DNA of 42,375 nt from positions 1 through 42,375 of IMG/VR virus record IMGVR_UViG_3300049810_000125; one strand, given 5' to 3'. A model generated the notes under the pieces. That model searched no databases. It saw nothing but the letters and a program-made list of their open reading frames with translations, and was not told the DNA's origin. The DNA comes from a virus. The position numbers and the translations under genes are program-made. This document shows positions 144 to 4,500 of this stretch, piece by piece; position 1 is the first letter of the stretch; each line of letters starts with the position of its first letter.

Positions 144-791
144 TTAAAGTTTACCCAAGAAATCATTAAATGCTTTTAGTTTTGCTTCTTCTAGAGAATT
201 CATACTAGCATTTTTAATATCTCTTTTGTATCCTTCGATATTCACTTCTTTGATGAGACCGCTATCCCATACCCATTCTTTATTCTCCATGATGCCATTA
301 ACAAATGCATCAGGTGCAGATGGGTCTGCTACGATATCGGCGGCGGTTGCAAGATAGAAATCTCCTTGCACTTCTGAAGAACCGTCTTTCCCTTGTTTAA
401 GGGAACCCATTCCTCTTGAAGATACGCCCAAGGTTGCGCCCTCGTCCATCAAATTCTTAACAATCTTACCATATGGAGTTTCCATAATTTTTGCTCTACC
501 CATGACATTAGAACCATCCATAGATAATTCTGTAATCATGTGCGATACTCTTTCAAGATTGATTGTTGGTCCATCAGGATGTCCCAACTCACCGAACGCT
601 CTGTTCTTATCGATATTTTCAGTCGTATAACGCTTAACTTCCGTTTCCATTACTGACTTCGGATATCTCCGTCCATTTCTATTTTTGAGGTCTGCCTGCA
701 TGAAGACACCTTCAATAAAGTATTTCTTCTTGCCGTCTTTTTCCTCAACTAAAAAATTTGTGTTACTAAGTTCTTCTCTAATAAGTTTCAT
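144..791 (-). CDS. gp21: Prohead core protease gp21 (215 aa)
   Basis: This is the maturation protease that, in T4, sits inside the prohead and cleaves scaffold, core and capsid proteins before DNA packaging. Recognisable blocks are FMQADLKNRNGRRYP (about 30-44), GELGHPDGPTINLERVSHMI (about 68-86, likely catalytic His71) and GVSSRGMGS (about 122-130, likely catalytic Ser124/125), as in the herpes-like S77 fold. The length matches T4 gp21 (about 212 aa). I chose the ATG at 791 rather than the upstream ATG at 839: the longer version would overlap the preceding gene by 46 nt and adds a non-family N-terminus, whereas 791 starts 2 nt after that gene's stop. Residues 200-203 (LEE|A) are a consensus self-cleavage site that would remove the last 13 residues. 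Confidence 0.93.
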   Translation of the reverse strand: MKLIREELSNTNFLVEEKDGKKKYFIEGVFMQADLKNRNGRRYPKSVMETEVKRYTTENIDKNRAFGELGHPDGPTINLERVSHMITELSMDGSNVMGRAKIMETPYGKIVKNLMDEGATLGVSSRGMGSLKQGKDGSSEVQGDFYLATAADIVADPSAPDAFVNGIMENKEWVWDSGLIKEVNIEGYKRDIKNASMNSLEEAKLKAFNDFLGKL

Positions 792-793
792 GT

Positions 794-1150
794 TTAGATA
801 CCTGCATATCCTGTTAATTTTTTCAGTACTAAGATACACGTTCCAGAACCAGTAGCAAGAGTAACTTTAATATTCTCATCGCTATCAGTTGTGTCTATTA
901 CTGGTAGTATAAAATGTCCTGCTGTTACCCCACCGGAATCAAATCTGATGGTTCCAGTAGTATGGGATTCTATTGTAACATCTCCTGACCAGTAAATTTC
1001 TTTAATACCTACTGTAGGTGAACTTGCAGTTTGACTAGTCACCAGAAAACTTGAGTGGTCAATATCGATTGACACGTTTCCGGCACCTCCGGTCACACGC
1101 ACTACATTAGTGGTTTTGGTGACTTTTAGATTGGTTGCTCCTATTGCCAT
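794..1150 (-). CDS. Small beta-rich virion-type protein, 118 aa, unknown function
   Basis: Not a family I can name. The protein has alternating hydrophobic and Thr/Ser/Gly stretches typical of a beta-sandwich, no Cys pairs, no signal peptide and no membrane segment. It looks like a distant paralogue of the 123-aa product at 9443-9814: both begin with a short VT/TT-rich lead, share an internal tract of the type I-x-W/Y-x(2-4)-D-I-x-V/I, a T-x-F/R-x-G turn region, and a near-identical end (LVLKKLTGYAGI versus ITLKKESGFTQL). It sits between the 529-aa protein and gp21 under its own late promoter. A capsid decoration or head-associated role is an inference from position. Confidence 0.7.
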   Translation of the reverse strand: MAIGATNLKVTKTTNVVRVTGGAGNVSIDIDHSSFLVTSQTASSPTVGIKEIYWSGDVTIESHTTGTIRFDSGGVTAGHFILPVIDTTDSDENIKVTLATGSGTCILVLKKLTGYAGI

Positions 1151-1198: not shown

Positions 1199-2788
1199 TT
1201 AAAGTTGTTTTATGAAACTTTTAAATGTAATGTTTTTTTCTACACTTTCAGACATATCGCCTTTCATGCCTTTTATTAATTTTTCTATTGTTTTTACGTC
1301 TACTTTATTTTTCGGTCTTGCTTTCGAAATCTCATCTGCAATTTCTTTTGCACTTGCACCATCTGAAACCATCTGATGAATTCTCGACATCATACTTTCG
1401 TCAATCGCAATTTCTTCTCTAATATCAGCAATAGATACTGCCATATCACCTGCGGCCATAGTAACTTTTCCATCTCTATTATAGAGATACTTCTTCATAC
1501 CAGTAGGATTGTCATCGTTCTTTAATGTAATCTTCTCTTGTTCAAAACGCTTACCTTTACCTACGATATTCTTTGCAGTCACAGTATAAGAGATAAAGTC
1601 TTTACCTCTTTCTAGTGTGGAATCGTGCTTAATCTTAATCTTAGAACCTTTCTTTAGTTTATCAAATATCTTGATTAACTTAGGATCGTCCATCTTCATA
1701 CCTTCATCAATTTCGACTTGTGCCTTGAGTACAGGATTGAAAGGTCTGTTGACTTCTTTATCTCCAACCTTTGGTGACATAGGTTCTTTTAACTTATGAA
1801 ATACACCCTTGTTTCTTTTTGCCATATCTTTTGCATCAGATTGCTTAGATGAGAACCCAATGATTTTACCTTTGGTATCTACGGCAACAAATCTGTATTT
1901 AACTGCTTCTTTAAGTGGATCATTCTCTGAAGTTAAGTACATATTAAGTTCGTACTTATTACCCATGTTGTATACTTGCACAGACCACGACTTACCTTTT
2001 TTAGTCTTGAGCATAAATGAATTTTCTTTACCCTTAGAAGGTTTCTTAGGTCCTGTTGCAACTTTGTTATCAATCTCGCTCGGATCAATCTCTTGACCTT
2101 TCTTCTTTGCAAAATCAGTAGCGTGTTGCATTGCAGATGAATAATCTTTATGAAAAATTTCGTAACCTGTAGCAGACTTTGCTTCAGTAATGTCTTCGTC
2201 AAAGAATTCGTTTTCTTTAAGTTGTTTTACTGCTTTCGCAAAATCTTGTGGCGACTTCGATAATACTTTTTGTAATTGTAATTTTGATGCTGGTTTCAAT
2301 CCTTGATATATTGATAGCATCTTCTCTGCATCTTTAGGATTAATTTTTGCTTTTTTGCCATTATCGAATGTGACTGGTTTCATACCTCTTAATGTAATTA
2401 CTTTACGCAACTGAACCATGATGTTTTTATCTGCCGCTTTCATGTCATCGGCAGTTGCATCATTATCGACATCAGCGGAATCTTTACCTCTTCTCATGCC
2501 CATTGCTTTCATTGCATCACGTTTTGCACGATTTTCTTGTAACTCTTCACCCACAAGTTTCAAGTAATCTTTTGCAATTTTTTCAACGTCTGCTTGTTTC
2601 TTATATGACCCGGCGTACTTCTCTCCATCAAAGTAAGCAAAAAACTTACCTGCTTTTGATGTGATAGTAAACTCAATCTTTTTACTACGACCAATCTTAT
2701 CAGTCTTCACAACTTTCTCACCTGAACCAATCTTAATTTTTTCAGATAAGTCTATCGTGTTTTTTACTTGGGTGAATGTGACAGACAT
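1199..2788 (-). CDS. Modular lysine-rich head-region protein (529 aa), candidate polyprotein
   Basis: It occupies the slot between portal/gp67 and protease gp21 where T4 has the small core gene 68. It is Lys-rich and appears built of separate modules: A about 1-85 (KIEFTITSKAGKFFAYFDGE), B about 118-192 (IMVQLRKVITLRGMKPVTF), C about 205-290 (GYEIFHKDYSSAMQHATDF to KYELNMYLTS), D about 297-352 (RFVAVDTKGKIIGFSS to NRPFNP), E about 368-456 (LIKIFDKLKKGSKIKIKHDS to GDMAVSIADI) and a helical tail. I recall such modules from predicted proteins of marine T4-like phages but know no established function. Four (I/L)-x-E|(A/G/S) motifs, the gp21 cleavage consensus, lie at E202|A203, E294|A295, E362|G363 and E464|S465, all in linkers between modules. 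Release of head-internal peptides is inferred. Confidence 0.75.
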   Translation of the reverse strand: MSVTFTQVKNTIDLSEKIKIGSGEKVVKTDKIGRSKKIEFTITSKAGKFFAYFDGEKYAGSYKKQADVEKIAKDYLKLVGEELQENRAKRDAMKAMGMRRGKDSADVDNDATADDMKAADKNIMVQLRKVITLRGMKPVTFDNGKKAKINPKDAEKMLSIYQGLKPASKLQLQKVLSKSPQDFAKAVKQLKENEFFDEDITEAKSATGYEIFHKDYSSAMQHATDFAKKKGQEIDPSEIDNKVATGPKKPSKGKENSFMLKTKKGKSWSVQVYNMGNKYELNMYLTSENDPLKEAVKYRFVAVDTKGKIIGFSSKQSDAKDMAKRNKGVFHKLKEPMSPKVGDKEVNRPFNPVLKAQVEIDEGMKMDDPKLIKIFDKLKKGSKIKIKHDSTLERGKDFISYTVTAKNIVGKGKRFEQEKITLKNDDNPTGMKKYLYNRDGKVTMAAGDMAVSIADIREEIAIDESMMSRIHQMVSDGASAKEIADEISKARPKNKVDVKTIEKLIKGMKGDMSESVEKNITFKSFIKQL

Positions 2789-2794
2789 TTGTTA

Positions 2795-2989
2795 TTACTC
2801 CTGAGGTACTGTTTTCTCTAAATCTAACTCGCCTTTGTCATTAAAAATTGTTTTAGATAGTGTTTCTTTTGCTGATGCAAGTTGACTTGCAATCTTATCA
2901 TTCATAACAGACTGAAACTTTGTTTCTGCGTCTACTAGATTTTTATCTGTAATATCTTTAACCATTGCGTTTACTTTTTCTTTTGCCAT
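2795..2989 (-). CDS. Small helical prohead core-like protein, 64 aa (gp67 position)
   Basis: Starts MAKEKVNAMVKDITDKN and is helical and charged throughout, with no Cys and no membrane segment. Its ATG overlaps the gp20 stop as TAATG, so translation is probably coupled to the portal gene. T4 has gene 67, an approximately 80-aa internal core protein, at exactly this position after gene 20. Sequence alone does not prove homology. It probably has a role in prohead core or scaffold assembly. The next gene starts 7 nt downstream. Confidence 0.7.
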   Translation of the reverse strand: MAKEKVNAMVKDITDKNLVDAETKFQSVMNDKIASQLASAKETLSKTIFNDKGELDLEKTVPQE

Positions 2990-4500
2990 TAAAATCCTCC
3001 ATCATCGTCATCATTTGGCGTTTCTTCTTCATCTGGAACTTCTGCTTGTATTTGATTATTTATCGCATCAATTTCAGCATCATTTTGTTTCAGAATATTT
3101 TTTCTAATCCAAGTTACACTGTAATACTTACCGATATATTCGTCTGCATCACGAACCAGTGCTAGTCTTTCTCTCAATATCTCTTGGTCTTTAAGTTCAG
3201 AGAATTGATTATCTTTTACATAATCATAATGAACGTCTTCTTTGATTGTTTCCCATTCTTCTTCAGTTATAACATTTTTTAATATTAACTGTGTACGCAA
3301 TAAGTCTTGAAATACTTCATTAAACTTCTTACGCAAACGACCAACAAACTTAGTAAACTTCAGTTCATCACGATTAATCTCTGTTGCTCTACCTAACTGA
3401 AAACCACTTTCAGGTTGCATACGAGACTGTGGTACATTAAGTGCTAAGAACATCTTCTTCTTAAAGTACTCAACATCTTCAATCTCACCGAGGTTTTGAC
3501 CACCACCTAATGTGCTAATCTCTGTACCTCTTCCGCCTTCTCTTCGTGGCATCCAGAAGTCTTCAAGCATATTCATAAACTTTTTATCGTCTTTAACTTC
3601 GCCAGTATCACCATCATAAACTAACTTATTCTTAAAGTTGTTCATAATATCTTTTAGATACTGTTCTGCTTTTAACTTAGGTAAGTTACCAACATCTACA
3701 TAGAACACTCTTCTTTCAGGTGCCCTTGCGATACGATAGATAACAAGTGCATCTTCCATCATTCTTAATTGATTAACAGGTTTGATTGCTTTATGTAAAT
3801 AACCAAGAACAATGTTATTGTTCATGTCTGTTAAACCAGAAGGTATATAAGCAACGCTATCTTTCGTGAGAGCGATAGCACCTTTCGATGCAGTCATAGT
3901 TGGACCCATGACGCTACCTTCTGAATATAAGAAGTATTCTTTGATACTCTTAATTGTAGAGACACCTTTTTCAAGTTCTCTCTTATCATCTTTTTCAACC
4001 TCACGAACAAACTTAATTGAACGTGGATCAATAATTCTTAATTTTTGAATGCCGGAAGTTTTATTAGCAGAGTCCACTACTTTATGAAAGTATACTCTAC
4101 CATCAACATACCAACGCTTGAATAATTCATGTGAACGCTTATTAAAATCAAGCATTCTTAGAATTAAATCAAATTCTTCTTTAATTTTTTTCTTGATTGA
4201 ATTCGAAAGATTAACATCATCTAACATTATATCGACTTGTCTATCTTCATCTGATACGATTGCTTCATTGATAATATCATCAATCGCCGCTTCGCACTCA
4301 GGATGCATAGAAATTTCCCGATACTTTTTGATTAGGTCTGCTTCGTTTCTAGATGCGTATCCTTGGTCTACATATGTACCAAAAGCACCACCAGAGACGG
4401 TTTGCACACCATCGTCAGGAGATGGAAGAATAATGTCTTGTTTAACATTACCCTCCCCTCCAGGTCTTGAAATTTCGAATCCAAATAGTTTTACTGCCAT
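2989..4500 (-). CDS. gp20: Portal vertex protein gp20
   Basis: Encodes 503 aa (T4 gp20 about 524), the dodecameric ring at the packaging vertex through which terminase threads DNA and to which the neck docks. Family blocks visible include EISMHPECEAAIDDIINEAI (about 67-86), the RELEKGVSTIKSIKEYF region, the YLHKAIKPVNQLRMMEDALV helix (about 238-257) followed by YRIARAPERRVFYVDVGNLP, the FWMPRREGGRGTEISTLGGG loop and the LNVPQSRM segment. The C-terminus is strongly acidic (PDEEETPNDDDDGGF). It sits between tail tube gp19 and the gp67-like gene, as in T4. This gene class is the standard marker for marine T4-like phages. Confidence 0.96.
   Translation of the reverse strand: MAVKLFGFEISRPGGEGNVKQDIILPSPDDGVQTVSGGAFGTYVDQGYASRNEADLIKKYREISMHPECEAAIDDIINEAIVSDEDRQVDIMLDDVNLSNSIKKKIKEEFDLILRMLDFNKRSHELFKRWYVDGRVYFHKVVDSANKTSGIQKLRIIDPRSIKFVREVEKDDKRELEKGVSTIKSIKEYFLYSEGSVMGPTMTASKGAIALTKDSVAYIPSGLTDMNNNIVLGYLHKAIKPVNQLRMMEDALVIYRIARAPERRVFYVDVGNLPKLKAEQYLKDIMNNFKNKLVYDGDTGEVKDDKKFMNMLEDFWMPRREGGRGTEISTLGGGQNLGEIEDVEYFKKKMFLALNVPQSRMQPESGFQLGRATEINRDELKFTKFVGRLRKKFNEVFQDLLRTQLILKNVITEEEWETIKEDVHYDYVKDNQFSELKDQEILRERLALVRDADEYIGKYYSVTWIRKNILKQNDAEIDAINNQIQAEVPDEEETPNDDDDGGF

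Follow-up and report, generated by a model that had tools for sequence, protein, structure and literature searches.

The stretch of DNA from a marine T4-like virus analysed here, a 42-kb IMG/VR fragment (IMGVR_UViG_3300049810_000125, positions 1 to 42,375; hereafter the window), encodes near its prohead protease gene a protein of 529 aa that raises the question of whether it acts as one chain or is cut by the protease into several small proteins. The first-pass annotation had read it as a processed polyprotein. This reading is supported by the reordering of its modules among relatives, by a C-terminal tag resembling that of gp21, and by N-termini of the capsid-targeting-sequence (CTS) type in the relatives, and on the basis of sequence we consider the protein to be probably a gp21-processed polyprotein of prohead-core cargo. 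The open reading frame placed by that annotation at 1199–2788 is real, and its strand, which had been left out, is minus. The genes that frame the argument are as follows.

2989–4500, minus strand: portal protein gp20 (Pfam Portal_T4, 4.5e-180)
2795–2989, minus strand: gp67-like prohead core protein, 64 aa (weak match to PHROG 1064 'prohead', E = 0.0036; T4-like position)
1199–2788, minus strand: 529-aa multi-module protein, the putative polyprotein (ORF with ATG start, 59 kDa, pI 9.57)
794–1150, minus strand: ORF of 118 aa with no assigned function, between the polyprotein gene and gp21
144–791, minus strand: prohead protease gp21, 215 aa from MKLIREEL (Pfam Peptidase_S77, 4.2e-40; PHROG 207, 3e-83)
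147–185, minus strand: C-terminal tail of gp21, AKLKAFNDFLGKL, preceded by SLEE (from a comparison of C-termini)

On the minus strand the order is thus portal gp20, gp67-like ORF, 529-aa gene, 118-aa ORF and gp21, and the Pfam and PHROG matches, weak in the case of gp67, confirm the earlier placement of the gene between the portal/gp67 genes and gp21. The same virus encodes gp21, the Peptidase_S77 match region extending over 144–839 of the window. By position, the T4 counterpart of the 529-aa gene is gp68, and small ORFs occupy the place of the 118-aa ORF in P-RSM4 and other cyanophages. No homology of the 529-aa protein to T4 gp67 or gp68 was found in PHROGs or Pfam. Its Pfam matches to DUF1699 and DAXX fell below the curated cut-offs and were dismissed.

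Four [IL]xE|[AGS] motifs, the number given by the first-pass annotation against about one by chance, are present in the 529-aa protein (DEDITE202|AKS, NDPLKE294|AVK, QVEIDE362|GMK and EIAIDE464|SMM), and no others; composition predicts 0.82 and shuffled sequences give 0.85 (shuffle P(≥4) = 0.009). With module cores (residues 17–80, 88–190, 205–287, 296–350, 364–456 and 466–510) set by homology to differently ordered proteins, module A being delimited only as the remainder, all four sites still lie in linkers and none within a module. The relaxed pattern [ILM]xE occurs ten times, nine of them at boundaries (16, 85, 192, 202, 294, 362, 458, 464 and 514), and the tenth, at 335, lies within a strand with Pro next. 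E16, E85 and E514, overlooked at first, are probable additional sites, which divides the protein into the following predicted parts.

2741–2788, minus strand: N-terminal segment, residues 1–16, MSVTFTQVKNTIDLSE then K ([IL]xE at 16; pLDDT < 50)
2534–2740, minus strand: module A, residues 17–85, ending LQE85 then N (beta strands, then a helix in the model)
2183–2533, minus strand: module B, residues 86–202, ending DEDITE202 then AKS (starts of homologous B modules follow [ILVM]xE)
1907–2182, minus strand: module C, residues 203–294, ending DPLKE294 then AVK (follows various modules in relatives)
1703–1906, minus strand: module D, residues 295–362, ending VEIDE362 then GMK ([IL]xE|[AGS] before D in relatives)
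1397–1702, minus strand: module E, residues 363–464, ending EIAIDE464 then SMM ([ILVM]xE before E in relatives)
1247–1396, minus strand: module F, residues 465–514, HTH-like, ending DMSE514 then SVE (helical in the model)
1202–1246, minus strand: C-terminal tail, residues 515–529, SVEKNITFKSFIKQL, with F-x-x-F-[LI]-x-x-L (gp21-like end)

The predicted fragments have molecular masses of 5.5–13.2 kDa and pI values of 9.2–9.8, and each contains 16–22% K, in agreement with the Lys-rich modules described earlier. The HTH matches of module F are weak and under the curated cut-offs. The N-terminal segment is a possible targeting propeptide; compared by eye, MSVTFTQVKNTIDLSE|K resembles MSLKFTDLSKRLQE|A in the cytidylyltransferase of a sister virus (L095). 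Internal duplication was rejected as the origin of the modules, which the relatives show to be distinct families.

The AlphaFold2 model of the full protein, built on a 30-row alignment (alignments A2 and A3 were used for structure prediction), is of modest confidence, with a mean pLDDT of 60.7 and a pTM of 0.33. Most modules are predicted to be folded, module E with low confidence. The expectation that the sites would lie in linkers rather than in folded cores is borne out for the original four, with 202, 294 and 362 falling in segments with pLDDT below 50 and 464 at the start of a helix between two modules. The low-confidence segments (1–34 nearly throughout, 194–206, 288–295, 340–367 and 513–529) also contain sites 16 and 514, and site 85 is inside a helix. 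A separate model of residues 349–529 agrees in outline with the full model. Foldseek searches with the predicted folds returned zero matches in the PDB at E ≤ 0.001 and just two in BFVD, both to unannotated viral proteins, and therefore gave no module identities.

Relatives were found among the Melnitz phages in the phages collection, where the homologue, gene 20 (QZI94753 in Melnitz EXVC044M), has the module order B, E, H, C rather than A-B-C-D-E-F and lies near a DnaB-type helicase rather than gp21. Scans of IMG/VR added about 80 loci with shared modules in varied order. The orders across the window and its relatives include ABCDEF, BEHC, GBEC, BEHCD, GED, HCE, CB and GBCEH, among others, and one relative (L005) lacks module D and carries module G between E and F. 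Because of this reordering, the module boundaries rest on homology and do not depend on the motif. The window protein belongs to the family in that its modules are homologous to those of differently ordered members and have [ILVM]xE at their joints. A close relative, the 102-kb contig L004, is 95% identical in the 529-aa protein and additionally holds gp22 and gp23; in a search of 16 IMG/VR records, most of which are fragments, it alone contained gp21. Whole-protein PHROG and Pfam scans of the relatives were mostly empty, and the module census is only rough because single-linkage clustering of in-silico fragments fused unrelated modules into one cluster.

Several module types were seen along the way. 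An EF-hand-like module, DIDNDGDVDKSDEYL, occurs in L081:3732-6362 and in Melnitz gene 21 (L002:7330-8085), and in several marine T4-like phages; it was called by eye from its DxDNDGD loop, and its PHROG matches (phrog_22379 and phrog_4359, to 7e-16) have no assigned function. Modules resembling ribosome modulation factor (RMF) occur in L050:3487-6096 and L006:4537-6336; their Pfam RMF matches (E = 5e-4 and 6e-3, respectively) do not reach the curated cut-off. A close relative of the window virus encodes a 959-aa multi-module protein fused to a cytidylyltransferase (L095:9358-12237) with several [IL]xE|A/G/S sites, which makes it a second candidate polyprotein.

We then compared motif positions with homology breakpoints (203 in 31 non-redundant relatives totalling 16,973 aa), scoring distances of up to 10 aa against a circular-shift expectation. 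Near breakpoints lay 62 of the 83 [IL]xE[AGS] motifs (21.5 ± 4.1 expected) and 134 of the 201 [IL]xE motifs (53.9 expected), compared with 141 of 421 for a polar-P3 control (104.5 expected), counts that are not independent because the relatives share ancestry. In unique contexts, [ILVM]xE stands upstream of module B in 12/12, of E in 21/22, of G in 16/16 and of C in at least 11/20 while the upstream modules vary, and [IL]xE|[AGS] precedes module D in all seven; module C of L009 and L010 is an exception in having no preceding [IL]xE. In the last linker, EEIAIDE|S of the window corresponds to EAVEIDE|S of L004, with IDE|S retained. Alignment of homologues, which had been suggested as a check, thus shows junction sites kept while the neighbouring module varies. 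The A/G/S rule of the first-pass annotation does not hold for many linkers in relatives, where P1' is K, M, R or T.

The commonest linker in the relatives, KE[ES]VELDE, is also conserved at the codon level as the DNA word GAA(GAA/TCT)GTTGAACTTGATGA(A/G) (L051, L054, L076, L080, L053 and others), in which Leu is always CTT against 32% in the background and Val is GTT in 81% against 49%. Because of this, the protein conservation of the canonical linker alone is no proof of a protease site, and the word may be a recombination seam, perhaps besides another role. Given that linkers coincide with module breakpoints, they might be kept solely as short DNA homology for module exchange in a chain that stays uncut. 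We consider this unlikely, since motifs outside the canonical word are equally concentrated at breakpoints: with canonical linkers removed, 33 of 46 [IL]xE[AGS] are still located there against 11.8 ± 3.2 expected, with Leu codon usage close to that of the background (53% CTT). Moreover, three of the window's four linkers lack the word (ITE|A, LKE|A and AIDE|S), and all four still fit the rule at P3, P1 and P1' despite having drifted in sequence (ITE|A, LKE|A, IDE|G and IDE|S). A role in exchange alone would also leave the gp21-like tail and the CTS-like N-termini unexplained.

These terminal segments link the protein to the prohead. In six relatives, gp23 carries at the expected position an LxE whose next residue is A or T, and gp21 of this group therefore plausibly retains the L-x-E rule. 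The C-termini of gp21 in seven Kyanoviridae read F-x-x-F-L-x-x-L, with [LI]xE just before in six. Mosig gp21 ends in QLAE|AKVNVFKNFLEKL, that of P-RSM4 in NLQE|RKVSAFEAFLKSL and that of the window in SLEE|AKLKAFNDFLGKL, and the Melnitz tail VSALAFAKFLSKL has no preceding cleavage-type site. The 529-aa protein ends in MSE|SVEKNITFKSFIKQL, whose FKSFIKQL matches the gp21 tails (FNDFLGKL, FEAFLKSL and others). Within the window only gp21 and the 529-aa protein carry F-x-x-F-[LI]-x-x-L ends, and the strict pattern, applied to 3,089 ORFs, retrieved only gp21, the 529-aa protein and two spurious reverse-strand ORFs. We propose this tail as a candidate C-terminal prohead-targeting tag.

A CTS was defined as N-terminal, with targeting residues 4 and 7 and processing residues 8 and 10. 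Polyprotein relatives start with MTRYSKTM[MS]E|[SA] or MKNIFQFIKE, in the same register as T4 IPIII (MKTYQEFIAE|A), and a register pattern fits 15 of the 31 relatives against 65 of 750 background ORFs, with kin sequences counted together; the N-terminus of the window protein does not match it strictly. In Melnitz, CTS-like starts are found in 4/8 genes of the gene 20 cluster and 4/191 elsewhere (p = 7e-5). This cluster also holds a cytidylyltransferase gene, and in most relatives the polyprotein gene lies in a cluster other than the window's, adjoining such a gene. The S-SM1 homologue of the Melnitz enzyme, SSM1_190 (L105:1857-3020; genome record GU071094), starts with MKKFSAFLNE|A, a T4-like capsid-targeting sequence, and has been reported, as T4-GC190, to be a virion protein (PMC3037559). 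The L004 contig has its own cytidylyltransferase-type cluster, containing MSLKFTDLSKRLQE|AKDD. Melnitz gene 2 (L011:82-1131), a RimK-like ATP-grasp protein, starts with the CTS-like (L/M)TQKFSQFITEE and may therefore be packaged as well.

The gp68 position between gp67 and gp21 would also suit a core protein of the gp67/gp68 type that gp21 shreds and whose peptides mostly leave the head, the modules not being cargo. In T4, gp21 cuts gp22 and the small core proteins into several fragments, which are for the most part removed (PMC9026906). The polyprotein is much larger than gp67 and gp68, and its modules, unlike core peptides, are structured and swappable. We regard such a scaffold role as improbable, because the modules, of 50–117 aa, are basic, mostly predicted to be folded, and conserved and swapped as units, and because in most relatives the gene is found in another cluster, beside a cytidylyltransferase gene whose homologue in S-SM1 has been reported in virions. 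That the protein is a conventional multidomain chain, never cleaved, with flexible Glu-rich linkers that fit a short motif fortuitously, is very improbable: any Glu is enriched by breakpoints (566/1204 vs 315 expected in the 31 relatives) and the window protein alone, conditional on Glu positions, gives P of only 0.045 for the strict motif (0.0025 for all [ILM]xE), weak because its linkers are Glu-rich, but [IL]xE lies closer to breakpoints than does Glu in other contexts (odds ratio 2.6, p = 1e-9), xE[ILV][DE]E occurs 80 times against 2.0 expected in the wider relative set, and the protein has the gp21-like tail. The decisive motif statistics are those of the family, not those of the window protein itself.

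For the gp21-processed polyprotein, we infer targeting, cleavage by gp21 and retention in the head as follows. The terminal segments, the CTS-like N-terminus and more clearly the C-terminal FxxF[LI]xxL tail, would draw the protein into the forming head. Inside the prohead, gp21 would cleave the joints on the C-terminal side of the [IL]xE glutamate (E85, E202, E294, E362 and E464), and probably at E16 and E514 too. This would free about six basic proteins of 5–13 kDa that are retained with the packaged DNA and may reach the host, as T4 internal proteins do, and viruses would exchange modules at the linkers. The modules could bind DNA in the head or act on the host after ejection; injection and any host function are speculative. 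Our literature search found no mass spectrometry or cleavage assay for any member of the polyprotein family.

Both the loading of cargo and its maturation by proteolysis have been described in T4 and giant phages, and the scheme is probably a variation on the T4-type system of targeted, protease-matured internal proteins. The polyprotein resembles T4 IPI, IPII, IPIII and Alt in its small basic predicted products, Glu-specific [LI]xE sites and, in relatives, IPIII-register N-termini, although sequence searches found no homology to them. Whereas the T4 internal proteins have one gene each, one gene here comprises about six site-joined modules in shuffled order. Alt and gp21 of T4 undergo C-terminal processing (PMC9026906). 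In phiKZ and SPN3US, inner-body and ejection proteins are extensively matured by the gp21-type proteases gp175 and gp245, respectively, which act at a three-residue Glu motif and cut some proteins several times (PMC9026906, PMC10052503), in parallel with the several sites predicted here. In contrast, the extra cuts in those phages lie mainly in propeptides and are described as redundancy, with no string of site-separated domains. The T4-GC190 cytidylyltransferase cluster of cyanomyoviruses adjoins genes of the polyprotein family in Melnitz, in HTVC008M and in further contigs, and amounts to an enzyme with appended modules, whereas the window gene lies within the head-gene cluster. The literature searched contained no description of head cargo encoded as a string of shuffled domains that the prohead protease cuts apart.

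The polyprotein would bear on the question, raised in PMC9026906, of whether the propeptide of gp21 is itself a targeting signal, because another protein has the same tail. It would also explain how many small proteins are packaged with one tag in marine T4-like viruses, and would make testable head cargo of a large set of 'hypothetical' genes; a practical test is possible because Melnitz has been isolated. More tentatively, marine T4-like viruses might draw on a common, quickly reshuffled stock of several dozen small modules, some HTH-like, some EF-hand-like and some possibly RMF-like, kept as head-protease polyproteins, in which one targeting tag imports many different proteins into the capsid and the linker serves as both protease site and recombination seam. 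If true, new head-delivered proteins could be plugged in at the linkers.
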